From positions 4,013,359 to 4,077,358 of the forward strand of contig CM037832.1 in the NCBI GenBank assembly GCA_021234535.1: a stretch of DNA of 64,000 nucleotides, given 5' to 3'. Of the stretch, positions 2-63,568 are shown one piece after another (within the stretch, counting starts at the first letter, position 1; every line of letters starts with the position of its first letter). The notes under the pieces were generated by a model. The model did not search any database. It had not been told where the DNA came from and saw only the letters and a list, made by a program, of their open reading frames with translations. A program made the translations under genes and the position numbers. This DNA comes from Stichopus chloronotus (Eukaryota; Echinodermata; Holothuroidea; Aspidochirotida; Stichopodidae).

Positions 2-3000
2 CTGGCAGACACAAATACAAACAATGTGTCCGTCTCCGGTTGTAGCAAGACGGATAAATGTAGAGATGAAAATCTGCAGCCCTCGATGCCCGTCATGTAC
101 GGTGGACCGGTCTTCATACCAGTGCGCTTCCCCTTTCCGGTTCTTGTTCCTGCGATGTTCAATGTGAATGGAAATCCAGAGCAGAAGTGCACTTGTTCCT
201 ACCACCCATCCAGAGAGAACAAGCCCAGTCAACCTGATGATGGTATTATTGAGACTAAACAACAAGCATGTCCAGTACATTACAACTTCAAATCTAGTCA
301 ACCGACATACATAAACACGCCTGTACCTAATGTTCAATCTTCTTTTATGCCTATGTACATGAGCTCTGGAAGTAGTGTCGTGACAAAGGGTGATTGGTCT
401 GGAAAACCAAAATACAATAGGTATAAATACAGTATGCTAAAAAATGGAGATATTTACAAAGGTATGGCTTGTAATTTTCAAGGCTATGCTGATTGGAACC
501 AGTCTGTGAATTGCAGTCAGCTTCCAGGTGACTGCCTGCCTCACAACATAAAGAAGAAACAGTACTCGGGGGACAAACTTTACAATGAGAAAACCAGTCA
601 GTCAGAAGCAGATAATTATAGCACTCCATGCTCTGTTGCAACATGCAAAGTACCTTCCAAATGTGATACCATGTGCCAAACATCATTGCAGAATGCTGTA
701 GGCCAGTCAGTCATAGACAGTGATTCCCAACAACTGAGAGCGCCTTCTTCTCAAAGAGTATTCGGAGTAGATGCTGCAGTACAGACAGATACTCAAGAAA
801 TTGAAGCAGGAGATAAAAGTGGAAGCAAGCAAATGTCAAATAATATAATGGGCAAAAGAAGTAGCTCAAGCAGTAACGTTCAGTGTTCTCTGCAGGAATC
901 TTCATTGATACCAGAATCTGAGAATGACAGAGTAACATCTGTTACTTGCGCTGGTTCATCACCTTCTAACTCTTCTGTTTCCTCTAGTCTCAGACATAAA
1001 AGCAGCAGTGAACAAGGTACATCTACATTATACTCATCAAGTGCCTTTACAACACCATCCCACACATCTGTAGTCACAAGCTATGGGTCTCCCGCAAGTA
1101 ATATACAAAACAATACAATGCAAACAACAGCTACTGCAGTGCCTTCAAGAAGTAATCATGACTGTAACCTGTCTGCTGTGTTACCAAATTTTTCTGGAAG
1201 GTCTCATCCTCACACAAGTAGAGAAGGAGATGAAAACAACTACAGTGATAGTTCATCACAGAGGATGCAAAGAGTTGCGTTTTCATCAGAGTCAGAAATA
1301 TCTACATCGTCACAGGCCTTGCAGCAGAGGAATTATGAAACTGATGTAATTGTACCACTGAGAGCAGCACCCAGCCCCTCAGATGCACACGATTCAGAGG
1401 ACATGGATCGGTTTGTCCTTTCTCCAGTCATATCGGAAAGTGACAGTGAAGATATTTACCACAGGCCATTGCGAAGAGCTGGTTTCTTTAGGCAGCCGCA
1501 AGACAGACAAAGGGAAGGCATGCATACTGCAACACCCTCTCTTTCAAGGACCAGTAGGATCCCATTAGTGAACCCCATCAGAGCTGGCAGCCTTTCTTCT
1601 AGCCGTCAAGATAGCTCGCACTCATTGCCACCAGTTGTAGTTCCAGGTGAAGGACAGACCTTGAACCGATGGACAACTCCACTCTCAAAGTCCATGCAGG
1701 AACATGGAAACCAGTTTTGTAATGGCCTGTATCATCCAACTGCTAATATCACATCTGTTGGGTTTCCTGTAGTAGGAACAGACACTGCCACAGTCAGTGA
1801 GCATAGAAACCCTTATACGTCTTTAACTCATGTGTCTCCTGATTCACTTATGGTACCAAATGCAGGATCTCCTTATCAGACACCCAATCCAGTTTTGAAG
1901 GAACAACAGAACAGTCTTCTTCACCCATCAGCAAGAGCCAGCCCATATCATCCATACTCTGCAACATCTTCACTTGCTTTGCCAACACAAATATCCAGAG
2001 AGTTTACAGAGTTTCCTGCTGCAAGAGAAGTCCCTGTTACTGGAGGAGGAGGAGGAGGAATGAACGTGACCAGCCTCCCTATTGCAACCAATAAGAATCA
2101 GTCTCATTCCACTCCAAGAAACACCCATACATTATCATATCATGTAAATGCTGGAGAAGGTAGATCAAAATCAAATTCTGATAATCGCATTGATAAGGCA
2201 GTGAGTGAGGCTAGCGGTGGAGAAAGGTATGGAGCAAATATTCAGTCAGTACCCCTTCAAAGCAACGTAGCAGGTCCTGTGAGAGGGGAAACCCCTGGAC
2301 AAAGGCAGCTTAACAAAGATAGTACTAATGTGCCTTCCGGAACCATGGAAGGACCATTACAACACGTATGTACGACTGTTGGATCTAGTGTAGGAGTGAG
2401 AAGCTCTAGTAATGGTAGATATTCATCAGTGTCATCACAAAGTCAGCACAGAAGACAACCCACTGATAAACATTCAGGAAATGGTCATCTCCACAACACC
2501 ATCGTCAGCTCTTCCACTGGATACCCAGTTTCATACGTTCCCCCCATTGGTTGTCACAACAGTGTCCCACCAATGCAAATACATGAACCATCAACACATT
2601 CAATGCATGGCTTTTCACAGCACCCTATATCTGGTACTGGTATAACCATGCATGGTCCTATGTCATCTGGTCTTTCACCTCGTCACAATCGCTCAACTCA
2701 TCCACATTCATTCCAGCCTGGAGGAAGGTACCATGGTCAGTATGGTCACATGTACTACCCACATTACAGAGGACTTCATCAGCCGCTCGGTATGTCTGCC
2801 AATCCTGCTCCTTCACACAGTGACTTATCACTTCTCTCTCCAAGGTCGTGTGCTCATTTGCATATCCATGGCAACATGCTCCATAGCCCACAGATGCCTT
2901 CATCCATGCACAATTTTCAGAGGCCTCCCGGTTTTACAAACAGTCTTCATGCAGGGTCGTATCCGTATTCTGCACGTAAAGACAGACTGGACACATGCTG

Positions 3001-3964
3001 TTCTGGAAGGTTAGGACATTCTCCACCCCGTGAAGACAGAAGTATTCCCACCCTCCTGACAAATATTCTTCACAGAAAACCTGGTGCTTTTTCTCACTTA
3101 GAGCAAACGGCATATGTTGATCATACCACTAGCCCAACTACTGTTTCACAACCAGTACATGCAGCTGTTGTAACAGCTCCATGTACTACAGTAACATCAA
3201 GTATTAACAATAATAAGAGTCCATCATCATCATCATCTACCAGTAACACTTTAAGCAATGCAAGTACAACTGGGAGTGTCACTTTCACAACAACTGATGT
3301 GGTAGCAGTTCATAACCATTCTGGAAAATCACCAAGTGTTTCAATACCAGCTCTTGCTGCAACATCAAGTCCATTATCCTCCAGAAGTAGCAACAACACC
3401 CATTCTGAGCAATGTCCTGTATCACTTCCATCTGGCTCTGTATCCTCATCAGCAGAACATCAGATTCCTTCAAGTGGTCACCAAACTTCCTCCAGCATTA
3501 CTGCCAGTCACCCCTCGTCATCAGTAGCTTCTCCATGTGTCCCTTCAGCTTCATCTTCTACTTCATCATCTCACTCTGTGTCAAGAGGCCTACCAGCCGG
3601 TAATAGCAGTGACAAGTATTTGCCAGTGGAAGCTGTACCACCTTCTCCAGCGTCAAGCAGTTCAACGATCACAACCCCTGAAAATAACCGCCAAACTGTC
3701 GACCAAGTTATTAAATATGGTGAAACAGTCCTGAAATGCAGCCGTCAGATCCTCCGAGAGTCTGGCCGGACAGTTCTCTGCTGTTGGAGTTGTGACTATC
3801 ACACAGCAGAGCCCCGTAAGATGCACCGACACCAAAAGAAAGAGACCCAACTTCAAAAGTGTCAGCTGTGTGATTATAAAGCAGATACACGCTGTAAGGT
3901 AAACCAACATTACAAAGAAGTGCACATGGATAAAGATGACCCTTTCAGATCAGTTAATGTTTAA
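2..3964 (+). CDS. Large Ser/His-rich protein with two C-terminal C2H2-type zinc fingers (5' partial)
   Basis: One reading frame is open from base 2 to the TAA at 3962-3964, about 1,320 codons. There is no stop upstream of base 26 and no convincing Met start, so this looks like the large last exon of a gene that begins outside the window. Most of the protein is low complexity: Ser/Thr-rich throughout, a Gly run near 2042-2061, a His/Pro/Met-rich stretch near 2580-2930 and a Ser/Thr-rich block at 3130-3650. Near the C terminus are two zinc-finger patterns. The first (3782-3840) has CxxC, 12 residues, then His, but no final His at the usual spacing. The second (3860-3925) is a full C-x2-C-x12-H-x4-H. 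The fingers suggest nucleic-acid or protein binding, probably in the nucleus. I do not recognise the family. Coding is near certain from length; function is inferred. Confidence 0.8.
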   Translation: MADTNTNNVSVSGCSKTDKCRDENLQPSMPVMYGGPVFIPVRFPFPVLVPAMFNVNGNPEQKCTCSYHPSRENKPSQPDDGIIETKQQACPVHYNFKSSQPTYINTPVPNVQSSFMPMYMSSGSSVVTKGDWSGKPKYNRYKYSMLKNGDIYKGMACNFQGYADWNQSVNCSQLPGDCLPHNIKKKQYSGDKLYNEKTSQSEADNYSTPCSVATCKVPSKCDTMCQTSLQNAVGQSVIDSDSQQLRAPSSQRVFGVDAAVQTDTQEIEAGDKSGSKQMSNNIMGKRSSSSSNVQCSLQESSLIPESENDRVTSVTCAGSSPSNSSVSSSLRHKSSSEQGTSTLYSSSAFTTPSHTSVVTSYGSPASNIQNNTMQTTATAVPSRSNHDCNLSAVLPNFSGRSHPHTSREGDENNYSDSSSQRMQRVAFSSESEISTSSQALQQRNYETDVIVPLRAAPSPSDAHDSEDMDRFVLSPVISESDSEDIYHRPLRRAGFFRQPQDRQREGMHTATPSLSRTSRIPLVNPIRAGSLSSSRQDSSHSLPPVVVPGEGQTLNRWTTPLSKSMQEHGNQFCNGLYHPTANITSVGFPVVGTDTATVSEHRNPYTSLTHVSPDSLMVPNAGSPYQTPNPVLKEQQNSLLHPSARASPYHPYSATSSLALPTQISREFTEFPAAREVPVTGGGGGGMNVTSLPIATNKNQSHSTPRNTHTLSYHVNAGEGRSKSNSDNRIDKAVSEASGGERYGANIQSVPLQSNVAGPVRGETPGQRQLNKDSTNVPSGTMEGPLQHVCTTVGSSVGVRSSSNGRYSSVSSQSQHRRQPTDKHSGNGHLHNTIVSSSTGYPVSYVPPIGCHNSVPPMQIHEPSTHSMHGFSQHPISGTGITMHGPMSSGLSPRHNRSTHPHSFQPGGRYHGQYGHMYYPHYRGLHQPLGMSANPAPSHSDLSLLSPRSCAHLHIHGNMLHSPQMPSSMHNFQRPPGFTNSLHAGSYPYSARKDRLDTCCSGRLGHSPPREDRSIPTLLTNILHRKPGAFSHLEQTAYVDHTTSPTTVSQPVHAAVVTAPCTTVTSSINNNKSPSSSSSTSNTLSNASTTGSVTFTTTDVVAVHNHSGKSPSVSIPALAATSSPLSSRSSNNTHSEQCPVSLPSGSVSSSAEHQIPSSGHQTSSSITASHPSSSVASPCVPSASSSTSSSHSVSRGLPAGNSSDKYLPVEAVPPSPASSSSTITTPENNRQTVDQVIKYGETVLKCSRQILRESGRTVLCCWSCDYHTAEPRKMHRHQKKETQLQKCQLCDYKADTRCKVNQHYKEVHMDKDDPFRSVNV

Positions 3965-13988: not shown

Positions 13989-16900
13989 CTACAGAAAGAT
14001 GTAGAGACGGAATAAATCTGACATGTTTAACAGACAAGAACACGTCAATGGGATATGTAAACCGCTCCTAGTGATATGAAACATTCCACATTCATGTTAC
14101 ATAGTGCAAGAGCATGAGGACATTTGTACGGTGCTATGGCAAAATTTGCAGGGTGTAAGAAAATTTTCATAGTGTGGAGAAATTTACATGCAGTGGTGAA
14201 TGGAGATAAACAAAATGTAAGGACATTTACACAGAAAGTACATTTTTCATCAATAAGTGACCGTAGCCAATGAAGAAATGGTACATATATAAACATCTGT
14301 CACACTGACTGTTGAATAGATGTGTTGCAAAAACTGTTTCATCAGTCACATTGACTGCTGTATCTGTCACACTGACTGCTACAGCAGTCACATTGACTGT
14401 TGCAGCGGTCATGTTGACCGCTGCAGCTGTCAATGTGACTGCTTAATGGCTCACTTCTAAACTAATACAGATACGGTATCTCTGACAGACAAAGCAGGTT
14501 TTTAAAAGTACTACCAGTGTTCATCACAAACTACTATCCCCTTCACTCATTAAAAAAAAAAAAAGTTACACCAAAGAAAGTGTTGTCTGAAAATCAAATG
14601 ACTTGGTGATGCCTTGCCATAAGTAAAATCAACTGAAAAGTTCCAGAGAACATCCCGTCCTACATCACTAATTGGACATGTGTGCCTTATTGGGCTGGAG
14701 ACCACTTGTCCACTCTTCAGAGATCAAAGTGACACATCATGCATGACTTTCATTGACCTAATATGTCAAAAATGTGGAGATCATATTCACATGGATCATT
14801 ATCTTTTAAGTACAATATATACTTTCTTCCTACACAGAGTTAACAGTGCATACAGTGTTATCAAGATTCACAGACAACAACATTGCTCCATGGGCACTTT
14901 TATTGATGTCATGAAAAATGCCCGACATCTGTTTGATTACCCAAAGGATAATTGTCGGCTTCGCATATTTGAAGTTCGAGCAACATTTTATTGATGAAAT
15001 ATTACAGTGCAATCACAGATTTACTTCTGTTGACCTTGAATGGTCTTTGACCTTCAAGAAAAATGTGAAGTTTTATCTAATCACACACAAGTGGAGCCAT
15101 TTGGCAATTTGTAATATATTCATATAGGGTGATACACACCAGATTTGACATCCATTCTAATTCATGATGACTGATGTCATGAAAAATGCTGGACATATGC
15201 AAAATTATGGAAGGATAATTTTCGGCTTCACATATCTGAAGTTCAAGCAACATTTAATTGATAAGATACAACAATGCATTCACAGATTTACCTAGAACTA
15301 TCAACCTTGAATGGTCTTTGACTTTCAAGGAAAATGTGAAGTTTTATCTAATCACACACAAGTGGAGCCATTTGGCAATTTGTAATATATTCATATAGGG
15401 TGATACACACCAGATTTGACATCCATTCTAATTCATGATGATTGATGTCATGAAAAATGCTGGACATATCCAAAATTATGGAAGGATAATTTTCGGCTTC
15501 ACATATCTGAAGTTCAAGCAACATTTAATTGATAAGATACAACAATGCATTCACAGATTTACTTAGAACTGTCAACCTTGAATGGTCTTTGACTTTCAAG
15601 GAAAATGTGAAGTTTCACCTAATCACAAAAGTGGAAGTATTTCGTGGTGTAACATATTCATGTAGGGTGATACACACCAGATTTGACATTCATGTTAATT
15701 CACCTCTTTTAGATACATTTTTGTTTACATTTTGACACACTCCCAGGTCACTATCTTGTACATCTTACAAAGATCAAGAGAAGCTTCTATGCAAACTGTT
15801 CTAAGTAAAATGACAAAACCACTGTCGAGACGAAGACAATCCCCAATAAACTTAGCCCTTAAATCCGGAGAATTCCTCATCACTGTTTATTGCAGTTTAT
15901 GTAATTCTTATGATGTGGTACATCACTGGAAATACTTGAAAGGATAAGTTAACCTTCTTTGTAACAGAACTGTAGAGACTGCAGTCCTTGATAGTACATA
16001 ATGGTACAGGACAGGCTGATCCGTCCCACAAGTTTCATGCTAAGTTGTTCTGTTGTTCCCTATTGTTTACTGTTTACATTAGGTACAAAAATAGGGCACC
16101 AGATACCCCAGGTCCAGGCCCTTTGGGTACCCACAAATACAACACTTAATAAAGCCTTTGCTCTGCTACAGTGATTTTAACATCACAGAGTTGTGTATGG
16201 TAGAGCTGAATACAGCTGAGTACAGCAGCATTCCTTTTATGTATTTCTTTTTATTGTTTGTAACTTTGTACCCTACTACTTATCTACTAGCTCATTAGTT
16301 CCATGCTCTAAAGAAACCAACTTGACTGCATTCTTTCCATGCACGTAAGAAACACACTTGACTGGACTCTCTCCACGTGCTTAAGAAACACAGTCGACAA
16401 CATTTTCTGCATGCACTTATGGGACACACCTGACTGCATTCTCTCCATGCTCTACGATACACACTCGACTACAGTCTTTCCAACTGCTCTACAGAAACAA
16501 ACATCACTGCATTTTCCTCATGTTCCAAACCAGTTGTTCCCAGATAATGGGTCACGATCCAAATGTGGGTCACCGATGTTTCTGTTGGGTCGTAAGCAGC
16601 TCTGTGGGTCGGGTGGATCATGAATGAGTTCTAGGCTAGACGACCCACCATTCATGTATCATTATCATACATCTCATATTACTATTATATATCAGATAAT
16701 GATTGCAGCTTTAGTTGATTTACCTCTTACTTAAATACCTTTGACATTATATTTATAAGGAAGATCAGTAACATTAGACTGACCTGTAGCTTGGAAACAA
16801 TCTAGGGCTAAACTACAACTTCAGTACCAGGCTACAGACCAGGCTAGGCCTGGTTTGTGCAATTGTGATGATGTGTCGTTATGGAACTGCCTGCTCCATA

Positions 16901-19900
16901 TATTTCATACACCTCAAAATCTTGCAGGCTCTGCAATAGTTGTGAAAATTGTTTAAGTCTCACTGGTGGTGCTATAGTTGCAGGCTTGAATCTAGCAGGC
17001 TACAGTTCTTGCTGCTACTCCTCGACAGGTTGCTAGGGAGGTCTATTATTGCTGACCCAGTGGCAGAGGACGATGCAAAAAGTCTTTACATGGCGTCTAA
17101 TTACGTTGGTAACGTGACTTCAAAGAATTCATTGAAGTCTTTACAACCTGAACGTATATTTGCAAATGAAAATTATGAATGCATACTACTCATCCTTCAG
17201 TACAACATGTATTCACACAACTATAATGTCATAAATTCTACTTTTCATGAATAGGCCCATCAAAGATATCTACAAATTACGCATCCTGAACTTATATGGT
17301 CCCTATGATACAAACTAGTGCATAATCCATCGACATACCTTCGTGCTTCTTGGAGCAGCCTTTCTTTCCTCATGGTGAGCATGCTCTGTCGTTCTGTGGA
17401 AGACTTTGAAAATCTGGTCCCTGAGCTGCTGGATCCACTACCGCTACTTGCACTGTTAGATGGGGCATCGGCAGTCCCTGAGCTGTTGTAGCCATCACCG
17501 CTGCCTTCACCATTGCTCAGAACACCACCGGTGGCTGAGCCATTGTACCCGTCACCTCTATGTTCAATGTTGCTTTGGATGGTGCCACCGTGATTGTCAA
17601 GCTGGAGGGTGTCACCACTTCCTCTCATTTGATGCCACATTGAGCTTTACCATGGAAAAGAAAAATATTTTATCTTCCTTAGGAGGTTATCTTCCTTAGG
17701 TTAACTTTTCATCTAAATTGGCTCTGGAGAAGAGAGAACTAAGTTTGCTAGATAAACCACACAACCAAGAATGCTGATGGAAACAGTGTCGGCTTTATAC
17801 TTTAATGACTACCCAAAGTTGACTGGCAATTCCTGCTAGACCAATCAATAAGAACAAACTAATAATCCAGTCACCAAAGGTCTCGCATCTTCCATCATGA
17901 CACTTTTTCCACTCCGGTGTCACCACACCCTTAATATTTTGATAACAGACATTGGTAAAAGGTTACGCACGAAGACAACTATTGCACTATGATCATTGAC
18001 ATGGTGCTCTACTTAGCAAACTGCAGAACAATGCAATTACCATAAACACAGCACTCCACTGGACACCGTAATCATCGCATACGACTTGAAGAGGGCGACA
18101 GAACTGGACAGCCCTAACTGTACAATTTGACTGCACTGAATCATCACTTACTCCAAATGATCACGGATATACTGTGCATGGTGTTCTCATTTACTCTGTT
18201 TATCGAACATTGGGTTTTTGATGAGCTCCCACCTGTGTTTTTGTCAGACATACGACTTGAGCGAGATTTCCAATCCTTTGGAAATTTATCACCTTGGACC
18301 ATTCTTTATCAATCGGTTGGCAGATATGTTTGTGTTTTGCTGATAATAAATGTTTATATTATGATCTGTCAAATGATCTTGAGCTGGAGAAGTTTACAAA
18401 TTTGGATATGCAACAAAAAAAAAAAAAAATTGTAAAACTACATATTAATGAAAACTTTAGAAGAATACAACCATCATTATCAGAGTAAAAATGCAGAGCA
18501 TTTCACTTACGTCGAATATGAAGCAGAAAATCATGTGTGTTAACTTACAGAGAGGTTGCCAATAGTTTCAAGAGAACTTTAGTTGCTGTTAATATACAAT
18601 TTACAATTGTTAATATACAATTTACAATTTGCTGTTAATATACAATGCTGTTAATATACAATTTCCTTTTATGGCCATACCTCAATTCAGGATGATTCTC
18701 AGGTCTCCTCCCAGAGGTGGTGGGCCTCAGAAGAGGGGAATAGGTCTCCGAGTCTGCAGGTACGTTGTTAACCTCGGTGGCAGGTGAAGAACCACTGGCT
18801 TGGGGAGCAATGTTTTCCGCCTGAAATTATCAATTTTGTTTCAGCAGGTTGTTAAACACAAAAATAAGGGGCAGGAGAGTGCAACAGGGGAAAAAAAAAC
18901 ATAAAGATACTATAAAGTAGGTAAATGCTTCCGAGGAGTTGGTACAAAAACTAACCAAAGTCATCATCACAATCAATTACAGCTGTCTTTTTGACTTTAA
19001 TTTGATACAGTAGTTACACTACATTCGTAGTGTAATGTCATTACAACATTTTCTGATGAAAAGTCAGAAGTTGAAAAATCCTATCTACCATTTCTAACCG
19101 GAAAGCCCAGGTTGCGGTTACTTGAAGTTTCACAGTCATCGAAATTGGACCAAACTATTGGCAAAATAGCGCACTACAACGTGATGATGAAAAACATCAC
19201 GTAGTTACCGGTAAGTAATCCAGGTCTTAATGAATATGCAACGACTTGCAGATAACCAAATCACATTGTGAACTTTGTTGTCCTTTGCTGGCCATAACTG
19301 AATAAGATATTAAGCCTGAGCACCATATCGCTGTCACACTTCACTATCAATTAACTAAACAAATGCAGAAACCACTTACAGACAAACTGGTCCTTGAGCA
19401 CTAATTTATGATATACACATTTGGGAGTAATTACTATGCTTCAAAGCACTGTCGATGTTTTGCAAAGTAATATGTTCAAAACAAGAAACCAAGCACTGGG
19501 ATAATGGAAGTAGACTAATATATCTGAACTGCAATTTATCCTACATGGAATTCTTCCTGGACACATAATATTGCATTTACACAACACCAAAACACACAAG
19601 AACCTGAAAGCCAAAAGGCTTTGTGATTCCTTGCCATTTGGTTACATTATAACAAATATGAATTAGCCACATGACAAGTATGAGATCAACCACAGTTACC
19701 GTTCTTGAAACACCATATTAATATGCCTTTAACCCCAAGACTTAACCTCCCCGTCAAACATAAAGGTGCAAAAATTGAGAGAAATAGTCTGTTCAATATG
19801 GGCAGTACACATACTAAGTATGAAATCCCCCACAATTAACCTTCTTGTGATAAAGTGTTTACAAGATTTTGACAACTAAGTACTTAACAACTGAATATGA

Positions 19901-50074: not shown

Positions 50075-50218
50075 ATGGATCAACTGGCAAACATGCCTGT
50101 GACTATTCTAGTAAAGGCACCAAATCAGAAAATTGGTGACCAAACTGTGGAGTGTTTCATGGATTGGACAGTTAAGAGACTGAAGTCTCATCTTGCTGCA
50201 GTTTACCCGAGCAAACCA
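50075..50218 (+). CDS. HERPUD2: HERPUD coding exon 1 (ubiquitin-like domain, first part)
   Basis: 144 bases, residues 1-48, from MDQLANMPVTILVKAPNQ to VYPSKP. Closely matches human HERPUD2 (MDQ start, KAPNQK, VYPSKP). Donor GTGAGT at 50219, phase 0. Confidence 0.94.
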
Positions 50219-53200
50219 GTGAGTAAACCAAACTTCGATCCTCAATTTCACACTATGCATTAAAAACCAGTCCAGTTTAATTTATTCCTAACAGATGTCA
50301 TGTTTTAAATGTTTGCAATTACATGACTAACCTGACAGTTAGAATGTGCACTGGAAAAATTTGCATTTCTGTGCAGTCTATATGTGTGAGTGTGACTGGT
50401 CCATTCATCAATTAAAAATGCAGCCTGCGAATGAATCTGCATTAGTGCACTCATACACAGAGACGTTTGTCGTAGAGTATGTGGAAGCTACGGAAAATTG
50501 TTTCTTGTATCTTCGGTATATGTTATACATGTATGGAATGCAGACTGCCATGCTGATTGAAAAGAAAATTGGTTTGCCAGCAGGTGTGTGTCCATGCAGT
50601 GAGTGGTGCAAGGTTATCCTGCCCATTGAATTTGCTGTGAATTTGTATGTTAGAATGAAAAGTTTCCATACAGTAGACTACCTGCAATGTTTGCTGGAGT
50701 AGATAGTGCAAATTGCACATGTTAGAGTTAAGCCTGGGTCACACCGGCGCGATTCAATACGCAATTCAACTTTCAACTAAATTAGTGCAAACTGAATTGA
50801 TCATAAAAATTGTTCAGAATAAAACAGCGTTGCAATGTCTCTCAATCCTGGATTTCTTGAAAGAGCAAAACCGATTTTGTAGTCCTTACTTTGCGTTCGT
50901 TAATGAAACGCCGTTTCAAGTTGTGCAATTTTAGTTGAAAATTGAATCATGTGGTGAATCGTACTAGTGTGACCCGGGTTTTGTGAAGACACCACAGGTG
51001 GGACAAAATTGTGTCTTTGTTAAACTAATGACACTGGGCACTCAGATGGTAGGTACAGCTGCTACAGTGGAATGGAAAGGCCCTAACTATACAGACATTA
51101 GTGCATTTCAACTTGAAATAAATTACTGTCTGCTAATTACATGTCCTATTGAATTTACAGTCAGTATCTTGTGTTTTGGTAACCAGTTTGTTTTTATTTT
51201 TGATTAAGTATTGTAGTGAACATTGTTAAGTCATCTCACAAACAAAAATGCTGGCTTACAGTGATAAAGCAATAACAGCATTGAATAAAGAATCACATGT
51301 TTTGATTATGTACTTGGATGTCCCACTTTCATTGCCCAATATTGTGGCTTTGCATGTATGTTTCTGGTAGGCTGTCATGGTACTGTACCCCTAAAATTGG
51401 TGGGCACCATTAATACAGTCATATATTGTACCAATAATTTAGCCATACCAGTATCATAACAGAAAAGGTCTGTTTTTAGCACAAGAAAGTTGTTGAAAAG
51501 TACTTGATTTATGGGGAATGCAACTTTTTTTCACAGCTTATCAGTGGCACATTGGTGTGTGCTAATAACTTGATGGATAGCTCTATTTATCTCTACAGAT
51601 ATCTAATGATTAAATTGCATGACATACATATGCACAGTATGTTTCATCTGATGACACAGAAATGCTTTTGTCTATTTCAGGCAGAGAAAAGCCAAAGAAT
51701 CATTTATTCTGGGAAATTGCTCCAAGATCATTCAGTTTTACAAGATGTCTTAAGATCTGTAAGTATCCTTCATGCACATTTAGATCATGAAAATTCATAA
51801 ATAAGAGAATGAATGGACTGGCTCAGTCTAAACATTGACATTCAAGAAAGCTGGTCCATTGTTTAACGTATGGCAGTATTTAGGGTAATCATTATCTCAT
51901 ACTTAGCATACATGTTGCCATGTACCTTACATTTTCGTACTTGTGTTATTAATAAGCCAAGGTAGCACGTTTTCAGTTGCTACAGTAGGGCTGTTTCTTG
52001 CTCATAGTGGCTACACTGCACCCTTCTCAAAACAGTTGCCTGCTAATACTACACCAAGGAGTCAGTTCCTTTTGGAAACAAGCATGTTTAGGCATGGGTG
52101 TCGGTCAGGAAGAGCCAGCACCGATTAGAACTGTCCAATGGTGACACACTTGCCGACCACCCTGCGTCATTTTCCATCTTTGCACAAATGCTTAACCAAA
52201 GTAGGGCCACTGATTTGGTTTAAAAAAGAAGTAACTTTCCCTTTTTGATTCTCCTCTTTTCCAGTTTCCAAGCTCACCAATTTCTGTATTTTATGGTTTT
52301 TCTCCAACTTACAGTCGGTAAAGTAGTGCAGTCTAGGATGACAACCGACTTTGCGTGATGAGAGTTAAATCAGAAATAAGTCATTCGTGCTGCTTTTAAA
52401 CTGAACTGTTTGCTGTTTACAAAACCTGATTTGAATTTAGGACTGCTTAAAACCATTCTCAGTTTTAGTGAATTAGCTCAACCCACGGAGTGTGGGTAGA
52501 GCTTATGTGGTACTGTAGGGGGAGAAAATGTCTGTCTCTCTGTTCAAAAGCCTACTTCTTCTACAGTTACTGGCGGATTTTTCTGAAATTTGCAGTGAAG
52601 GTGCCACATTGGGATGGCAATACAAGTTGTTCCTAACTGTATGATAGGACAAAGGGAAGTCATAATTTTTGGCTATTTTGATCATTTTTCCTTGTGCTTT
52701 AGATCCTTTTGAAGTCTCACTCCCTTGATTTGAGTGGTTATATTATGTGGTAGTGAGTTGAAGTGAGCTTTATCTGGAGGGGCATGCTCACCATCTTAAA
52801 TGAATAGCCTCAAGCTAAAGCTTGTGTAAGACAGTTTTCAGTTACTTTGTTTTGACTGTTTGGGCATTACTTGTACTCCCTGTAGTATCCAGTGTCCACT
52901 GTGTACACAACTAATGTACCATGATGGCAAAGTTCCCTGACAGCTAATTTTAGAATCTATTACATAGCCCCCCTTGCTGGCTGTGTGGACATTGCATACA
53001 GAGGGGTTATTGTTCTTCACCAGTTGTTTCCCTGGTCTAGCTAGAATGGTTATCAGAGAATGTTAGGGAGTTGAGGTTTGGTCTTGGCTTGGTCAAGGCC
53101 CTGCACCAGTGGCATAACCAGACTTTTTATTTAAGGGGGGGGGGGGGGGGGGAGACAGGTGATTATGGCACTTTCTAAGTGTAGTTTAGCATATACCACT

Positions 53201-56200
53201 AAAATTTTTGCCAAAAGTTCCTCTCATAGTGCAGGAATTGGCAGTTCCCAACCTTCCAGACCTTGTGAATTGTGGCCAAATATTCTTCATTTTTGACAAA
53301 CCACATTTAGAAATTTACACTTCCAAAAGGTCAGTCTCTGCAAGGGTTGTGAGTGGAAGCCACAAAAAGGAATTGTTGATTAATTTTTGATAACATCAGT
53401 AGTGCTAGTTTAGTTGAGTTTAAATTAATGTATTCAGGCACTTACTGTACAGGGGGGTTCACTAAGTCGAGATGCAACATTCTTATTTGTCAACAAAAGC
53501 CTACATATTTGGGGGGGGGGGGGGGGAGACAAGTGATTATGGCACTTTCTAAGTGTAGTGTAGCATATACCACTAAAATTTTTGCCAAACGTTCCTCTCA
53601 TAGTGCAGGAATTGGCAGTTCCCAACCTTCCAGACCTTTTGAATTGTGGCCAAATATTCTTCATTTTTGACAAACCACATTTAGAAATTTACACTTCCAA
53701 AAGGTCAGTCTCTGCAAGGGTTGTGAGTGAAAGCCACAAAAAGAAATTGTTGATTAATTTTTGATAACATCAATAGTGCTAGTTTAGTTCAGTTTAAATT
53801 AATGTATTCAGGCACTTACAGGGGGGTTCACTAAGCAGAGATGCAACATTCTTATTTGTCAACAAAAGCCTACATATTTCATCATACTAGATTCTTTTCA
53901 TTAATTTGTTTTTTTACGGAATCAATATTAGACTCCACACGACTTAGCAGCATTTACTTAAAGGGACTCATTGAGTTGACATCAATAAAGTTTGTGGTGG
54001 TTTTGAAGGATATAAACACATGACAATGCTTACAATTAGCATAAGTAGTCAAGTTTCACATCCAATAGTTATGAAAACTGTCAAAATTTTCAAATTTTTG
54101 ACTGTTTGTTGCACTGGTTGTGTGCGTTTGAATATAGTACTAGTATGAAAAGTGTCTAGTCACGAATTTTCATAAACCAAATTAAATCATTAATTACTTA
54201 CTCATTAAAGTTCCATTGTATGTGAAACATTGGGATCTTCTTAGTTTGACCATTTGTCACTTGTATGTGAAGGAAACTTGACGGGTGTAGATAAATTTAG
54301 TGAATTTCAGGAAACAACTCAATGAGCCTCTTTAAAAAATGCATGGTGTGGTTTTCATCCAATATTTTTTTTACTCACCAATTTCATTGGGGGTAGTGGG
54401 AGGGGATAATCAGACATTTGACAACCCCCTCTGGTTATGCCACTGCCCTGCACAAACTGGTGGCATGTACTAGAAGTCTACTTTCTGATCCCTATCCCTG
54501 TCCCCTGTGGGCAGTGTTATATAGCTAAGATTTATCCCTGAAACCAACTTTGCTATTTGTCAAATAGCAACTCCCTGCTGAAATGGTCCAGCTACGAAAG
54601 TTAATTGCTAGGTCAACAGTGTTTATGTGCTGGCCAGCCCAACTTGAGTTTGTGTACAGTATGAACGATGTTAGGACCATAGATGTGTTCCAAATTAATT
54701 TTCAACTGGACACTTCCTAACATCAGAAGGGTTGAGCAACTGCAGCATCGCTGCTCTAGTTTTTTATTCCTTTCTGAAGGGAGGCAAGGTATTTATGCAG
54801 TCATGATAGTAAGCATATGTACATGTGTGTGTGTGTGCCTATATGACGCTTTGACTTGTAAACACTTGACCCCGAAAGAACATTGCCATGATCCCTACTG
54901 TTTTTCATTTACTGTAGGTCAAAGGTCTTTTTAGGTCACCAGAGCTTTAAGGTATGAAAACCTTTAAGGAATGTATCACAGCAAGTGACTGTTGGGACTT
55001 TGAACTGTTCACATTCGTGACTTATGATGAGTAGATGATCTTTGATATTTTTATGGAGGTCAAAGATCACATAAGGTCATAGTTTGAAAACCTTGTAAAC
55101 ATGGTATCTCAATAAGGGAAAGTTGCTGGAACTTCAAACTTCGTGTGGAGGTTGCCCATTGTTAGTACAGGATCCCCACTGTTTTTCATGGAAGTCAAAG
55201 GTCATTTGAGGTCACCATAGGATGAAGTATCAAAGCATTCTACTTAAGATATCTCAGCAGCTGGATGTCGCTGGAGTTTCAAACTGTGTGTGCTCCTGCA
55301 CTGTTAATGGAGTTTCATTTAAACCAGATAACAAAAATGACTGCGGTTCTGTTTGTGTTTTCTGACCCAAAGCACTATAGGTACTTTACCATGTAGCCTA
55401 ACTTCTATTGTTTTTTGTAGATTGACAGTGAAACCTTACATACAGTACACCTTGTTTGTACACCGACACCAGAAGAGATGTTAGAGACTGGTAAGTCATC
55501 ATCCAGTCCACCAAGCAAACTTTAACACCACTCAGACATGAAGAGTCTAACTCACAAGGAACAAACGTGGGAGACTCTTCAACGGATGGCATTAGACAGA
55601 GGTCCCACCAACCAAGAGAAACTTCCAATGCCACAGCAGGATATAGGTGAGCTTATTTGACCTTCTTCTCCCCCCCCCCTTCTCCCCTGTCAATGAGGGA
55701 GATAACTGAGATATATATGGTATAACAGATGCACAGTATGTCACTTTCATTATCCTAAACAATAAAATAGATCACTTGTTTGGATTTGTCGTAATTGATT
55801 TATTGCTTGTCCACAAACAAAGAGTAGTACTGCCTTTGTAGTGAGCAAATCTCATGTAGGTGTACCATATTAAGTACAAAAGCCCTATTGTTTTTGGCAG
55901 AAGTCAAATGTCATTTCAGGTCAACAGGGGTCAGATAATGTTAACTTTGTAAACACAATATTCCAAGAGGGGGAAACTTGCACTGATGTGATATTTGCTA
56001 TGAACTGTACAGTGCCAGGTGAAGGGGTGTACAGTACTGTACCTTACTGAGTACTTAAGCCTCTTACTTTATATTTGGTGAAAGCCATTTTGGTCAACAA
56101 CTATCATTTTGTGAAAACAACTAAGGTCAACAGATGTCACTGTATGTATAGTTAGTGGTTGTTTAATCTTAATTGATGGCATGATAAATTAATACTGATG

Positions 56201-57399
56201 AAGCATTACAACAAATCTGTACCAGGAATAGAGAAGGACAGGATGAATGTGTGAATTTCGGCGCAAAACAGGTTTGTTGATTTTTTTTTTATTTTTTATA
56301 TCATGCTTTAAATGAGTGGTTGACATCTATAACAGTGATTTAAATCATATAAATTGATTTAAACCATGATTTTTTAATAAAAATATATATTCTTTTTCAT
56401 AAAAATCATGATTGTTATGGGCTTGATTAAAATCAAACAACCCTGGTGCTCAAAACATGTATGAAAATTAATTCAGTCTTTTTGTGCATCAGTCACCTTT
56501 TTGTATTATAAAAATAAATGTCTTGTGCACTTTAGCTGGCCAAAGTTCAACCTGTCATTGTTTTTACTGACTTAGATGTGTGCTGTAGAAAATGCCAGCA
56601 GCGCTTTTCAACTGTGCCTTCATCTCATGTGATAAGAAAGTTCGCATTAATGCTTCCACTACAAGATGCTGGGATACAGTAGATTAGTAGACTTTCCCCC
56701 TGTACTGCACACACTCTGTTTCGAAGGAAGTTTTTAATTACAACAGTGTAATGTACTTCTCAAGTTCTGGTTTATGAAGCAGTTTTATGTACACAGACTG
56801 ATTTAGGGATTATATGGATGATCATGCTTCAAGAAAGAACAGGTTAATTTGAGTTATGTCTTTGTTCATGATAATGATAAAACAATGGATCACCTTCAAT
56901 CAGTCAATTCTTGTCAATGTTGTATGTCTGCAAATTCAGAAATTCTATCAAACCATCTCAAGGGTTGTGTGCACTGTATCAAAGTAATCACAGACCTACA
57001 GACAGTTTACTGGTATTCAGGGATTTTTTCTTCAAACATATCAACATGATTATGTTATGTAAATGCTTTTACGTGTTACTGTATTTTCTTTGATGTCTCA
57101 ATATTGTCTTTCAGTGCACCATACTATCAGAGTAGTGCCCCAGTGGCAGCAGCTTATCAGAACATGAGTCCGCAACAACTGCAGTGGATGCAACAGCTCT
57201 ACATGCAACAGATGGCCTATTACATGCAGTAGTGAGTACTTTACACTTCTAATTATGTTGGTCATAGACTACGATATAGCATCACCTAATGAACAATTTG
57301 AAGTCTGTCTGTGCTCATTGTTTTCTCAGACTTTACTTTTTGATTTCCATGGCAACCATAACCTTTGCACTCATACTGGCATGTGTGTTTGTTTATTGG

Positions 57400-57435
<36 letters not shown>

Positions 57436-60400
57436 ACATATGTATGACGATCTACCTTGTAAAGAGGATATCTCAAGGAGAGAAGCTTGGACAGGTGTGA
57501 TGTACCGCATTAAGTACAAGGACCTTGTTGGTTTTGGTGGAGGTCAAAAGGTCATTTGGGGTCAGCATCGGTCAACTGGTAAAACCCTTGTGTACCCAAT
57601 ATCCTTAGAACTGTAAGCTTGTCCAAATCAGATATTTGGTATGAAGCGTGTACATTCTGCCAGCAATAGTGAAAGGATTATTTTCATGTTACACCAAACA
57701 ACCATGACTGTTCACAATTATGGTGAACTTGAATCAGTGATGTATCTTTTGAAGTTTTTTTTTTTATTTTTTAAGCAGTGCAATGTCAGCCAACACAAAA
57801 GGTTTACAAAGTAAATTAGAAAATACGGTAAAATTCAGAGAAAGGCAGATTTGGATTTTCCCAAGTTATTTTATGGACGGTGTAAAATATTCATCTCTAC
57901 TATAACATCACTGAAAATCCCCAGGGTTTGCATCTCCTTTAAGAAGCAAAAAGAAAACGACATTTTTATTTTTAGTATTCTGTATAACTGCAGCTTACTT
58001 TATGACTTTTCTTCAACAAACGGCTTTACCAAAACTGCATGTTGCATGCAAACACTCTCTGCAACATTGCCTTTAATTAAACAGGCATATCTTTGTTGGT
58101 TGTTAACACTAGGCTGTTAGCGCTACTCCTGTGGTACAGTGATTTCAGGATGAACATAACCTGAAGTATTGCTTTGCACAGAATGCCAATCTTGCTATAA
58201 GTGTGATGGAACCAAAAGTTATCCCATGAGGACAGTCGTTGACAAGTCTTTTAGTGAGCTTTTCAGGCTCTATGTTGCAGTACACATACGGCACTGTAAG
58301 TGGTACCATGCATGCACTGTATTCCCCTTAATATGTCAACTCCTTTCCTTTAAGGTCTGGATATACACTATACATATTTTCATAATATTCGAGGTTTTCT
58401 GGTTAATTATGCTGTAATATTTACTGTAGAAGGATGTTTATTGACATTTCATCCCGGACTTATGTGCGTATGTTGTTGACATTAGGAAAGGACTATTTGT
58501 GGTGCCTTCAGGGGTCAGTAATACGATATCATAAATTGTTTATTCAGTGAGTGGGAGGAATTGCATGGTGCATATGACGTTCAAGTGTTTCACAAAAGGT
58601 TAATCACTTTACAGTGATTACGTGATTAGTCAGAATTAATGACATGTTTCACTTGTAGTCTTCTTTCTTTTCTCTTTTTAATGTTTTCTTGAGATTTATT
58701 GAGGCCTGTATTGGTTGTTTACAGAGGCCTATATTGGTTGTTGAACATAACAGGTACAGTAGTTCTATCCTTTGCCAAACACACAGCACTACTCTTAAGC
58801 AATGCAACAAGTTTGCCTCAATATTGTAGCAACATCAAAAACAAATTCTGAGATTCCCTTCCACTTTAACCTTTCCCATAGGCACCAGATTGGATTTAGC
58901 GGATTATGCCAAGTCTGGTAGTGAGTACTTCTTGTCAAAGTTAAAGCAATCTATCAAAACATTGAAAAAAAATAATTTTTAGGTTTTGTATTCCATTTTC
59001 ATGCATGTATTAGGTTGTTTAAAATTGTTGTATAATATTGCTGTGTAATATTGTTGTATAAGATTGTCTCAGGCATTTTATTGTTTGGGATTAGTGTTTT
59101 CATCAATTCCTAAAACTAGGAATCGGGTAATTTTCTATCATACCCATCAGGTACTCTACCAAAATGGCAGCCCCATTTTTTACATTGGTATTTCCACAGT
59201 ACTGTGCATCACATTTGTGCGGAGGAATCTTACCAGTACACTACGTACACTTGCCTACACCTTCTCATGAATAGGACCACCTGTTTTTCTTAAGAAATAG
59301 AAGGAAATTGCATTTTGAGCTTCTTTCTTTTGGATTTCTTGGAATTCTTCTAATTTTGGATCCCGGTAATAAAATGCCATTCGGGTACCCAATTACCCGG
59401 GTTACCCATGAAAACACTATTTAAGATACTGTAATTAAAATCTGGACTCCTTGAAACATTTCTGAGTTGTTTGTCTAAGGGCACCCTTTACCCCCAAAAT
59501 CTGTTCATTCTTATGAAATATTTGTCCCAGAATATTCCGGGACCTCTGAGAGTGATTCATTTGATTCTACCAAAGGAAGCAGACTGTAAAGCGCTGTTCA
59601 CACTGCTGTCCATGTGATGTCTTTAAGTAATAAGTATATTTTTCTTTTTCATAGTCATGTGATACAAGTCATAAATTTTACACAGAGTGGCAAATTTTTG
59701 GTTCCCTTGGATCAGAGATGGAGAATATTTAACTAAAGCTCAAAAAATTGGACAACAATCTGATCCAAAATGGTGGTAGTGTGTTTAGCGCTTAAGTCAC
59801 CATTCAGAAATATCTCGAATAGATTAAGCAGAACATTTTGACCTCTTACTTCTTCTAATGTGGCAATGCAATATCAAGATTTGCAAAATAATAATCATGG
59901 TGATTGTGAAAAATATGGAAGAAATAATAATCCATGTTTCCAAATACTGCCAAAAGTCCCACAAAATGTTTAAAAAAGCAGTACTCTGACAATTGTAAGT
60001 GTGTACATCAAAACAACACGGGTACCCCCCTGAGCATCCACTATGGTATGGTACGACTGTGGGCCATGGAAATGGGAGGAGAGTACTGTAAAACTGGTTT
60101 ATTAATCGTGTAGGCCCGGCATTGTCCTTCAACAAATCCACCTTGACAAATTCAAACCAAAAATCTAAAAACTCTTAAGCTTCAAATATTATAAACTAAA
60201 CAGCAAACTGTATTTAAATGTTTCTTCAAATGACCTGATGTCTCAAATTTTAAAATAGTTGGCTGTTCACTGTGATGATGAATTATGAAATGACTAAGGT
60301 GATCAGGCTATTTGCTATTCTTCATTATGTTAGGATGTGATTATTTTTAATTTCAAGTAGGGCTTGCACAACCTTTTCTGTTTCTTTTTGTGAGACACTT

Positions 60401-63400
60401 TTAGACGTTTTAACTCTAAATAAGTGTAATATATTTTGGTTTACACAACATGTGTAACATTTCAAGGAGTTTTTACAATTCAACGCAGTAGCAATGCTCA
60501 CTTTCATGATGAAATGCATATTCAATTGCTGAGGTGCTTAGACTATTCCCTATACTTCACCATGTTAGGATATTAATAGGTCATTCTTGAAAGGTATACA
60601 CTATATTTTGTATTTCTTTTCACCAGACACTTGTATATTTGAACACCCTCAAAAATGTATCTACTGTAGTGTGGTTTTAGTGACATGTAATATTTCAAGG
60701 AACATTTAAGTTTTGCAGCAACATCAATGACACTTTTCTTGATCAAACTTTCATTGCTAGCACAACGTAATTGAAGGCCGAAAATCAGTGTAATGCCAAA
60801 AAATTCAGTGTAATGCCAAAAATCAGTGTAATGCCAAAAAATCAGTGTAATGCCAAAAATCAGTGCATGCTATCATTAGGCTAGACTCTCGGTAAGAAAA
60901 TATTGTTATTTTATCATCACAATAACTTTTTCCTTTATTATCATGATCATCTTCGTGACTGATCGTGATCATCTTTGTGACTCAATATCAGATAGATCGC
61001 CTCTCAATGTAAGAGATATTCATAGCATTTTCTGAACAGCCTGTTTGCTCCAGACCGTCCCATGTACAGGTTATGTCGCGATATTAAGAAGACAGTGATA
61101 GTTCTTATATGGTTTATAGACTGTGCATCCTTTAAAGAATAGTGTTGCTTTTAGTTATCACACTCTATAATTCTTCATTGTTGTCGCTCCTCCTGAATTT
61201 AGCATGGACGACACAATGCTGTCTTTCAGAATATGGCGGAGATGCCTTTGTACTTCATTCTAGAGCCCTTGTGCTATTATGTGTACCACAATCAAAAGAA
61301 AAAAAAGGAAATACGTTACTCTACATCATGCGAACAATACCGCACTTAAAGTTTCCAATGTGCTTTATTTCTTTTGTATTTTGCAGCTCTAGTCAACCTG
61401 GAATGAATCAAGCTTTTGTTCCACCAGTCGCATACCAGTTTCCCCAGCAGCCGATAGATCAGCGACCACCACCCATACCGGTTAATCAAGCTGCCGTTCC
61501 TCCTGTTGTGAATAACAATCCTGCAGCAGCGGTGCCAGAACCAGCCAGGAATGCTCCGAGAGTTCCAAATCAGCAGATGAATGCCGGCGTAGGCCCTGCG
61601 ATGAACGACGACGTCGAAGAGGAAGCCGCAAACCGCGATTGGCTCGATTGGATCTATACTCTTTGTCGGTTTGGTGTTCTCCTCAGCATCGTCTACTTTT
61701 ACTCATCAATGAACCGATTCCTTCTTGTGACTGGCATTATGTTTCTGGTATACTTGTAAGTGCAGTTAAAAATAATTTTTCAATGCATGGCAGAAGCATT
61801 CAGTTTGGTGGACATATCTCTTTGACACCCGAGTCTCACTTGTCACATACTGCTGTTTGAAGTGATTAGATATTTACACCAAGATTCTGCAGGTGGCATG
61901 TTTGCAATGGTTTTGGAACTCAATCGATTCGACATTGTGTTTGGGCTCGGTGACATGTTTGATCTGTGTTCTGTCTTCATTTTGGTGTTCACCTGTGTCA
62001 CAGGTAGTGCGTGATTTGATTTATGGTCGATAGCAAAGCGTGTATAATTCGTGAATCATAACCACTGTGAAAAATCCTACTCAGCTTCATTGATGTTGCT
62101 GTACATAATAACAATCATTCATGAATTGCACCACTTTGTAGGTCAGTAGTCTGTTACAAATTAGCAGCTCTTACTTGTCAAGCTATCTGTACAGAAGTGA
62201 ACAGTCAGAATCCTGAACGTGGGTGAACTATGTAGTTCAGGTCAGTCTTGTTGTAGTAGATTTATAGTTATGAAATAGACAAACAACTCTGATTGTATTC
62301 CTGGCTTGCCTGCTTGTGTGTGCTGCTTTTACAGTGTAACCATTTATTATTTGCAAGGAATCACAAACTTTACTTTCTTCTTTATTGAAACTTCGGAAGC
62401 AAGCAAAGGCTGAAACTTGACTGTTTTGCTTTGACCAAACATAATCCTTCATACCAATTTCACTAATCCATTGTCTTGAATTTGTTTGATGTAGTAGCCT
62501 CATTATCTTGTAGTATAATCAAACAGGAATTGTTACAAGTTAAAATTTAATTCTTTCAGCTGTTCTTATTATACATATATTTTTAGATATGAACACAACT
62601 TCTTTAGGCTGAGAAGAGCTAATGTAGCTAGAGTTCAGATTGAAGAGAGAATAGGAGAAGTGCAGAATAATGAAGAGGAGAATAACGAAGTGGCAGCAGC
62701 TGACCAAGTAGAAGATGAGACTGATGGATCAAGTAATGTAAGTCTAATAGAGAATGTTGGTGGATCAAGCAATCTAAGACTAATAGAGAATGATGATGGA
62801 TCAAGCAATGTAAGACTAATAGAGAATGCTAATGGATCAAGAAATGTAAGTCTTGTAGAGAATGCTGATGGATCAAGAAATGTAAGTTTTATAGAGAATG
62901 CTGATGGATCAAGAAATGTAAGTTTGATAGAGAATGTTGATTGATCTAGTGATGTAAGTCTGATAAAGAATGCTGATGAATCAGCAATATAAGTCTAGTT
63001 GAGATTGTTGATGAAGCAAGCAATGTAAGTCTAATATAGAATGCCAACGAGTTAAGCAATGTAAGTTTAAAGCCCGCCTCACACAAACGTTATTCAACAC
63101 ACGATTCAACTTTTCAACCAACTCTGTGCACATTGAATTGATCTAAAAGCTGTTATGAATGGAATAGCTTCAAGCAATGTAAGGTTAATAAAAAAATGCT
63201 GCAGAATCAAGCAAGGTAAGGGTAATAGAGAATGCTATTTGATAGTCATTAAGATGTCAACCTCATATATGTCGTTGATGTGGTATGTTTATTTCTACAT
63301 AAATGGAATTGTCTGGTTATCCTTCTCAGATGCCTTTCAATAAGTTTTCATTTTCTCTAACAGCATAATAATGAAACTCCCTGATGCTGACCAGCACAGT

Positions 63401-63568
63401 CCCGATAGCTCCAACGAAAACAGCGACGGTACCGAAGAAACGTCGAGATCGGAACCACCTCCCGAAGAACCTTCTAGGCCCGGCTTTTTTGGGACGCTCT
63501 GGATCTTTGTATCGACGTTCTTCACTTCTCTTATTCCACAAGGACCTCAGCATTTGAACGTTAATTGA
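50075..63568 (+). CDS. HERPUD2: HERPUD (HERPUD2-like) ER-membrane ubiquitin-like ERAD factor (7 coding exons, whole gene span)
   Basis: Seven plus-strand exons give about 419 residues (human HERPUD2: 406). Exons 1-3 encode an N-terminal ubiquitin-like domain (PVTILVKAPNQ, WTVKRLKSHL, YSGKLLQDH, VHLVCT). Exon 4 is Gln/Met/Tyr-rich (LQWMQQLYMQQM), exon 5 is Pro/Asn-rich and ends in DWLDWIY plus a hydrophobic hairpin, and the last exon ends FFTSLIPQGP, like HERPUD2 FFTSLIPEGP. Vertebrate HERPUD proteins sit in the ER membrane with both ends cytosolic, scaffold HRD1-type ERAD complexes and are induced by ER stress. Start: the first ATG after a plausible acceptor, giving the MDQ start of HERPUD2. 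Exon 3 (55421-55646) is one base short for its phases, so this assembly reads a stop at 55523. The donor of exon 6 lies in a 36-bp repeat array. Invertebrates may have one HERPUD gene, so the 2 is by similarity only. Confidence 0.93.
50731..50980. mobile_element. MITE with about 50-bp terminal inverted repeats in HERPUD intron 1
   Basis: The left end (GCCTGGGTCACAC, then GATTCAAT and AATTCAACTTTCAACTAAA) is the inverted match, about 80%, of the right end (TTTAGTTGAAAATTGAATCA, then GTGTGACCCGGGTT). Length about 250 bp. The target duplication is not clear and there is no coding potential. Confidence 0.75.
51681..51758 (+). CDS. HERPUD2: HERPUD coding exon 2
   Basis: 78 bases, residues 49-74, with RIIYSGKLLQDHSVLQDVL matching the second half of the HERPUD ubiquitin-like fold. 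Acceptor TCTATTTCAG, donor GTAAGT, phase 0 at both ends. Confidence 0.95.
52475..52503. repeat. Short hairpin in HERPUD intron 2
   Basis: AGCTCAACCCAC and GTGGGTAGAGCT pair at 11 of 12 positions across a short loop. It lies in a repeat-like segment ('ctgtctctctgtt', 'ggcggatttttctgaaattt'). Confidence 0.5.
53107..54445. mobile_element. hAT-type non-autonomous DNA transposon in HERPUD intron 2
   Basis: Terminal inverted repeats CAGTGGCATAACCAGA (53107-53122 and inverted at 54430-54445) are perfect over 16 bp. They are flanked by identical octamers CCCTGCAC at 53099-53106 and 54446-54453. An 8-bp duplication and a CAGTGGC start are hAT hallmarks. Length 1,339 bp, no transposase frame. It contains an internal 374-bp tandem duplication. 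Confidence 0.9.
53135..53880. repeat. Two-copy 374-bp tandem duplication inside the hAT element, each led by a G run
   Basis: Sequence following the G run at 53135-53152 (18 G) is repeated with about 97% identity after the G run at 53511-53526 (16 G). Two near-identical 60-codon frames (53208 and 53582) are copies of each other, not genes. Confidence 0.92.
54800..55330 (+). repeat. DR1-containing repeat array in HERPUD intron 2
   Basis: AGGTCAAAGGTC at about 54916, AGGTCAAAGATCA at about 55057 and AAGTCAAAGGTCA at about 55193 (steps about 140 bp). Each is followed by a second AGGTCA about 9 bases on. AGGTCA reads on the HERPUD sense strand. Confidence 0.8.
55421..55646 (+). CDS. HERPUD2: HERPUD coding exon 3, with apparent one-base frameshift
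   Basis: Acceptor TTTTTTGTAG, donor GTGAGC at 55647. The first part reads IDSETLHTVHLVCTPTP in the frame of exon 2 and runs to a TAA at 55523. The second part reads sensibly in another frame (LTPLRHEESNSQG, then GIRQRSHQPRE; compare human GLRQRT) and ends in the phase required by exon 4. The exon is 226 bases but needs a length of 3n+2, so one base is missing or two are extra, most likely near the AAA run at about 55517-55519. A GTAAGT at 55491 lies inside the exon, but no partner acceptor makes a workable intron. Confidence 0.82.
55840..56130 (+). repeat. DR1-family repeat fragment in HERPUD intron 3
   Basis: 'agaagtcaaatgtcatttcaggtcaacaggggtca'-type text, with the order and spacing of the other copies. 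Confidence 0.65.
57115..57231 (+). CDS. HERPUD2: HERPUD coding exon 4 (Gln/Met/Tyr-rich)
   Basis: 117 bases. One base completes Ser, then APYYQSSAP and LQWMQQLYMQQMAYYMQ, like human LQMLWWQQMYAHQYYMQYQ. Acceptor GTCTTTCAG, donor GTGAGT, ends in phase 2. Confidence 0.93.
57395..57625 (+). repeat. (TG)n/(TATG)n microsatellite plus DR1-family fragment in HERPUD intron 4
   Basis: TG repeat at about 57400-57420 and TATG repeat to about 57440. Then a repeat-family unit with AGGTCAAAAGGTCA (a two-base spacer, DR2-like) at about 57541-57554. Confidence 0.7.
57630..61380. other. HERPUD intron 4, remainder
   Basis: AT-rich intronic sequence. No exon with family similarity was found. Contains a 20-bp tandem repeat near 60.8 kb. 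Confidence 0.5.
60779..60866. repeat. About 20-bp tandem repeat in HERPUD intron 4
   Basis: Five copies of AAAATCAGTGTAATGCC-like units of 19-20 bp. Confidence 0.9.
61387..61755 (+). CDS. HERPUD2: HERPUD coding exon 5 (linker and membrane hairpin)
   Basis: 369 bases. A Pro/Gln/Asn-rich linker, an acidic MNDDVEEEAANRDWLDWIY, then the hydrophobic stretch LLSIVYFYSSMNRFLLV, near identical to human HERPUD2 LLSIVYFYSSFSRFIMV. Acceptor GTATTTTGCAG, donor GTAAGT at 61756, phase 2. An ATG-started frame at 61142 crosses the acceptor and is not the real start. Confidence 0.95.
62587..62737 (+). CDS. HERPUD2: HERPUD coding exon 6 (cytosolic acidic tail), variable 3' end
   Basis: Acceptor ATTTTTAG. One base completes Leu, then YEHNFFRLRRANVARVQIEE and an acidic stretch to DGSSN. 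The first donor is GTAAGT at 62738, phase 0. The following 36-bp repeats keep the frame open to TGA at 62942, with further phase-0 donors at 62810, 62846, 62882 and 62918, so the exon could end in several places 36n bases further on. Acceptor and frame are well supported; the 3' end is not unique. Confidence 0.85.
62723..63236 (+). repeat. 36-bp minisatellite spanning the HERPUD exon 6 splice donor, 12 units
   Basis: The unit is GATGGATCAAGNAATGTAAG followed by TCTAATAGAGAATGCT. Units start at 62723, 62759, 62795, 62831, 62867, 62903, 62939, 62975 (35 bp), 63010 and 63046. The tenth is interrupted by a MITE fragment, and two more copies follow (about 63160-63236). Ten of twelve units keep GTAAGT, GTAAGA or GTAAGG. 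Units 1-6 are open in frame; unit 7 has TGA. Confidence 0.93.
63071..63160 (+). mobile_element. Half-copy of the MITE at 50731, inserted in the splice minisatellite
   Basis: From AGCCCGCCTCACAC to about 'tgttatgaat' it aligns with 50731-50820 (shared ATTCAACTTT, CTGAATTGATC-like words). It breaks repeat unit 10. Confidence 0.75.
63395..63568 (+). CDS. HERPUD2: HERPUD coding exon 7 (last)
   Basis: Encodes an acidic/Ser-rich tail ending GFFGTLWIFVSTFFTSLIPQ and TGA at 63566-63568, like the HERPUD2 C terminus. The acceptor chosen is GCTGACCAG ending at 63394, which gives phase 0 to match the phase-0 donors of exon 6. The nearer CTCTAACAG ending at 63363 looks attractive but needs a phase-2 donor that I cannot find. 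CTAAC there is a good branch point for the 63394 acceptor, with no AG between the skipped CAG (61-63) and 63394. Confidence 0.88.
   Translation, partial: HSPDSSNENSDGTEETSRSEPPPEEPSRPGFFGTLWIFVSTFFTSLIPQGPQHLNVN

Follow-up and report, generated by a model that had tools for sequence, protein, structure and literature searches.

A minisatellite of repeated 5' splice sites at the border of a HERPUD exon in Stichopus chloronotus, with the exon-proximal copy as the probable working donor

In the stretch of 64,000 bases of the Stichopus chloronotus genome analysed here (hereafter, the window), the penultimate coding exon of a HERPUD-like gene ends inside a 36-bp minisatellite whose unit carries the 5' splice site of that same exon, which raises the question of which among so many adjacent copies of a donor the gene makes use of. 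The answer that we consider probable is that the minisatellite was seeded at the exon border and is largely neutral, the donor of its first unit being the working one.

The host gene runs on the forward strand from 50075 to 63568, with its stop codon at 63566-63568, and seven coding exons are modelled for it (50075-50218, 51681-51758, 55421-55646, 57115-57231, 61387-61755, 62587-62737 and 63364-63568), the exon model having been corrected with the protein of a relative, P0001. Its ubiquitin domain (PF00240) scores 34.5 bits against a cut-off of 25.4, and the closest solved chains are the UBL domains of HERPUD2 (PDB 2kdb, 1.5e-26) and HERPUD1 (1wgd, 6.8e-18). When a query joined from the window exons is compared with HERPUD2-named proteins at full length, the membrane segment and a C-terminal block are found in common. 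The UBL domain, the NRDWLDWIYT...FYSS membrane segment and the C-terminal STFFTSL block are those of the HERPUD1/HERPUD2 family, the tail of whose members is cytosolic; as a member of this family the host gene is ordinary, and what distinguishes it is the array into which its penultimate exon runs. The nearest named HERPUD relative is Apostichopus japonicus P0003, 59% identical over 82% of the query. The 401-aa query protein used in the domain, structure and relative searches derives from a first exon model, since discarded, that took 63395 as a phase-0 acceptor and split exon 3 by a short intron so as to preserve the frame; P0001 has both stretches as coding sequence, and its alignment to that query therefore shows gaps at the two of them. 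Upon searching P0001 in the 719-Mb assembly, all eight of its eight matches fell at the HERPUD locus of the window, so that a second HERPUD-like copy was not found, and the possibility of a pseudogene with an intact paralog elsewhere found no support in the same result.

Other features of the window deserve mention in their own right. An open reading frame at 17263-17646 of the reverse strand contains a gp78/AMFR Ube2g2-binding region (PF18442, E 1.3e-6) and lies ~32 kb from the HERPUD-like gene, both families acting in ER-associated degradation. Human AMFR and HERPUD1 are near each other on chromosome 16, and the neighbourhood of AMFR-like and HERPUD genes may be an old linkage. At 2-3961 of the forward strand, an uninterrupted exon of 1320 aa is mostly of low complexity, with C2H2-like zinc-finger motifs recognized by eye at its end; it gave no Pfam match at E<=0.01, and two relatives at E<=0.001 among 7984 candidates scored, namely P0121, with which it aligns from residue 27 to the end, and Holothuria leucospilota P0122 (46%).

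Tandem Repeats Finder located the array at 62721-63070 with a period of 36 bp (9.8 copies, 83% matches, score 413), and its manual layout on the forward strand gave 12 units over 62723-63236, unit 10 being shortened. The consensus unit consists of an exon-type part of 15 bases, GATGGATCAAGCAAT, followed by an intron-type part of 21 bases, GTAAGTCTAATAGAGAATGCT; unit 1 takes its exonic part from the last 15 bases of the penultimate exon (62587-62737, ending ...DETDGSSN in phase 0). The hexamer GTAAGT is found in units 1, 4, 5, 6, 7, 9 and 10, GTAAGA in unit 3, and GTAAGG in units 11 and 12, while the donor is lost from unit 2 (CTAAGA) and unit 8 (ATAAGT), so that GTAAG[TAG] is kept by 10 of the 12 units. 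On its forward strand, the whole window of 64,000 bases contains the motif 64 times, a density of about one per 1000 bases; as 10 of these 64 sites fall within the array, its donors exceed what chance would provide. One base is missing from unit 8 and one is added in unit 11. A ~106-bp fragment of a repeat dispersed in the genome (about 63066 to 63172, annotated on the forward strand at 63067-63172 with approximate ends) lies between units 10 and 11 and cuts unit 10; the same repeat was matched, at 75-83% identity, in at least 25 other places of the assembly, 7 of these 25 copies having been aligned together with their flanks, and the window copy is truncated. With an array-containing query, a genome search that passes over simple repeats and words of very high frequency, and that scores the best candidates only, returned matches elsewhere solely in the dispersed-repeat part. 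The window also holds a second array of 36-bp period at 16300-16513 (5.9 copies, 68% matches), with another consensus unit.

Reading the units in the exon frame, units 1-6 are open and in phase 0, and unit 7 begins GAT TGA, the TGA at 62942-62944 being the first in-frame stop within the array. The donor of unit 1 (AAT/GTAAGT) lies at 62738-62743, and those of units 3-6 at 62810, 62846, 62882 and 62918 (together 62810-62923), all of them in phase 0 and before that stop. The donor of unit 12 (AAG/GTAAGG, 63216-63221) lies past it and shows the top U1 pairing of the array. Thus, the initial annotation, which had reported twelve border-spanning units with ten donors kept, together with these donor positions, the open frame of the first six units and the stop of the seventh, described the locus correctly.

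Evidence on donor choice comes from the proteins of relatives. P0001 is a 429-aa ORF on a contig of 3294 nt, whereas the window gene spans 13.5 kb, and it was for this reason read as most likely derived from spliced RNA (the collection labelled 'lgn' consists of assembled sequencing runs). Its identity with the window model is 97% at aligned positions, or 91% when two misread stretches are counted, and it reads DETDGSSN/LNNETPDADQ, so joining the position of the unit 1 donor to the acceptor taacag/63364 of the last coding exon (63364-63568); the end of the penultimate exon, earlier placed at 62738 as the true donor, is therefore at the same position in this protein. Array residues are absent after its DETDGSSN. 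A motif scan of the 120 relatives listed of 421, which were clustered at 90% identity and among which clustering could conceal rare isoforms, likewise found no array residues other than one isolated VSL in P0017, and for a 118-aa query of exon plus array, in a search that reached short fragments, none of the 73 candidates matched at E<=10. Proteins with differing numbers of units were thus found neither in P0001, nor among those 120 of 421 relatives, nor in the short-fragment search. P0001 may come from another species whose genome may be without the array, and it may not be of RNA origin, which weighs against the unit 1 reading; the window species would be expected to splice in the same way.

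The course of events that we consider probable would then be as follows. A segment of 36 bp lying across the 3' border of the penultimate HERPUD exon would have been duplicated in tandem, and the duplication would have grown into a minisatellite of 12 units reaching into the intron. The exon-proximal donor at 62738 would remain the working one and be paired with the acceptor that precedes 63364, and the remaining copies would normally be spliced out with the 626-nt intron, being largely neutral and subject at most to a low level of noisy use.

Coding constraint, conservation and U1 pairing of the units were then compared with this reading. Single changes of units 1-6 relative to the consensus comprise 6 synonymous, 12 missense and 0 stop, all 108 possible single changes comprising 24, 80 and 4, respectively; by codon, 3 differences are synonymous and 13 are other. 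No purifying coding signal is therefore seen in these units, the pattern being close to that of no constraint. With a random length and random intron bases, the probability of a border unit being in phase and stop-free is ~0.24, so the open frame of units 1-6 amounts to a weak coincidence. The view of the array as coding was accordingly left without support, there being neither coding constraint nor, in the searches above, a protein bearing its residues. Units 1-6 differ from the consensus at 1-4 positions each and units 7-12 at 4-9, the latter also containing the in-frame TGA, two indels and the dispersed-repeat piece, which speaks for the neutral reading; the cleaner early units would also fit exon use, and this weighs against it. 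The donor-core columns are conserved at 0.967 versus 0.855 for the rest (column permutation p=0.0375, uncorrected, and for the best of 36 five-column windows), which could reflect selection on the donors and is the only sign of it. As to U1, the computed pairing amounts to -5.4 kcal/mol in units 1, 4, 5, 6, 7, 9 and 10, -4.3 in unit 3, and -10.0 in unit 12 versus the -5.4 of unit 1. The five remaining donors in the gene model pair at -6.5 to -9.5 (a site at 55491, not a donor in the corrected model, was also scored). Since unit 1 is weaker than these five and is equalled by units 4-7, 9 and 10, competition between array donors is plausible, and on these computed energies we regard it as possible.

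The assembled frame around the array must also be considered. Entry in phase 0 at 63364 reads HNNETP and then TGA after six codons, because the frame is shifted by 1 nt against P0001: the window carries one base extra near 63377-63384, in the last exon, and one base fewer near 55520-55530, in exon 3 (55421-55646), both sites being in weakly conserved linkers. As no other HERPUD copy was found in the assembly, the two shifts go back to errors of assembly or to a disrupted allele, or else are bypassed by other splice sites, among which an acceptor at 63395 would bring the last exon back into frame. A high general indel rate in the assembly is unlikely, the 1320-aa exon at 2-3961 being uninterrupted, which concerns one exon only. 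The early TGA affects the unit 1 donor as much as the others and hence cannot by itself decide between readings.

Turning to other explanations, the initial annotation had proposed a length ladder, in which the donors at 62738, 62810, 62846, 62882 and 62918 would all be used and would add whole 12-residue blocks to the HERPUD tail, starting with two blocks because unit 2 is without a donor. Such a graded tail agrees with the shared phase 0 of the five donors and the frame open through unit 6, with the equal U1 pairing of units 1, 4, 5 and 6 and the weaker one of unit 3, with the slight conservation of the donor core, and with the human UBC gene, where repeat-borne splice sites can give a size ladder (PMC10809524). 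It is nevertheless decidedly improbable, and the proposal is not supported, in view of (i) the array residues not being found in P0001, in the 120 of 421 relatives listed or in the short-fragment search, (ii) the coding constraint not being visible in units 1-6, and (iii) every phase-0 donor, that of unit 1 equally, meeting the TGA six codons past the 63364 acceptor. The extra donors might instead bind U1 as decoys and tune splicing of the intron, with use of unit 12 predicted to yield a nonsense-containing RNA, since the in-frame TGA of unit 7 would be retained. The unit 12 donor pairs best with U1 and that TGA ends 271 nt upstream of the unit 12 junction, a geometry from which a target of NMD may be supposed; moreover, according to PMC5188458, which cites Lievers 2001, more repeats of a border VNTR in human CBS reportedly go with lower CBS activity. 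However, use of unit 12 would make an exon of 629 nt with the dispersed-repeat piece inside it, and the donor G is gone from two of the twelve units, so that we hold a decoy or switch function to be improbable.

The two functions might also be coupled, units 3-6 giving low-level extensions of the tail and unit 12 the nonsense-containing RNA, a combination that appears very improbable; if true, the output of an ER-stress gene would depend on the length of the array, which would differ from one individual to another, in the way that CBS activity is reportedly influenced by the CBS border VNTR. Finally, the locus could be mis-assembled or represent a disrupted allele, in which case unit number and frame would be unreliable. 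The 1-nt shifts near 55520-55530 and 63377-63384 and the failure to find a second HERPUD copy in the assembly are in line with this, but the intact 1320-aa exon aligning with P0121 (again, one exon only) and the differences of the array units from one another speak against it; because the units are mutually different, simple duplication of one stretch of reads is unlikely, and an artefact is considered the least probable of these explanations. A largely neutral minisatellite in which unit 1 supplies the working donor thus continues to be the reading that we prefer.

The initial annotation knew of no described parallel in HERPUD; this may hold for that gene, but in general the arrangement has one. 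Human CBS carries a VNTR of 31 bp, c.1444_1467+7(16_21), whose units differ by single bases (PMC2630376), placed at the exon 13-intron 13 border (PMC5188458, PMC1395315) and termed non-coding in one of the papers (PMC5188458). As computed here from the HGVS name, its unit is of 24 exonic and 7 intronic nt in 16-21 copies; crossing the exon-intron border, it copies the 5' splice site many times, its border-spanning unit with a GT donor being of the same kind as the 15 + 21 bases of the HERPUD unit. The two differ in that CBS is another gene in another phylum, in that its 31-bp period is not divisible by three and makes the copies rotate in phase, versus the period of 36 of the HERPUD array, and in that the CBS VNTR is polymorphic in people whereas the HERPUD array was read from one assembly. 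Human UBC (PMC10809524) resembles the HERPUD array in its repeat-borne splice sites spaced by multiples of three, by which in-frame blocks can be added or dropped. Its AGGT sites double as donors and acceptors, each of its repeats corresponds to a ubiquitin, and its ladder was displayed by RT-PCR. On the contrary, such a dual-specific AGGT is missing from 11 of the 12 HERPUD units, only unit 12 (AAG/GTAAGG) having it, and the records searched here contain no HERPUD ladder. In human segmental-duplication genes, internal tandem repeats at exon-intron boundaries can alter splicing (PMC2812944), in a situation similar to that of HERPUD; those repeats were compared between recent paralogs with transcripts, whereas the HERPUD array is known from a single gene copy. 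Minisatellites and splicing in C. elegans are treated in PMC4039745. Among the papers listed in our literature searches, one of which concerned sea cucumber genomes, a HERPUD repeat did not appear, which is no proof of its absence in print.

The HERPUD array therefore appears to be a further border-spanning donor minisatellite after that of CBS, rather than a new mechanism, set apart by a period that keeps its early donors in one phase and by its occurrence in a different phylum. As such, it provides a clean experiment of nature on how the spliceosome selects one of several near-identical donors, and also on how arrays can grow at an exon border without destroying the gene.
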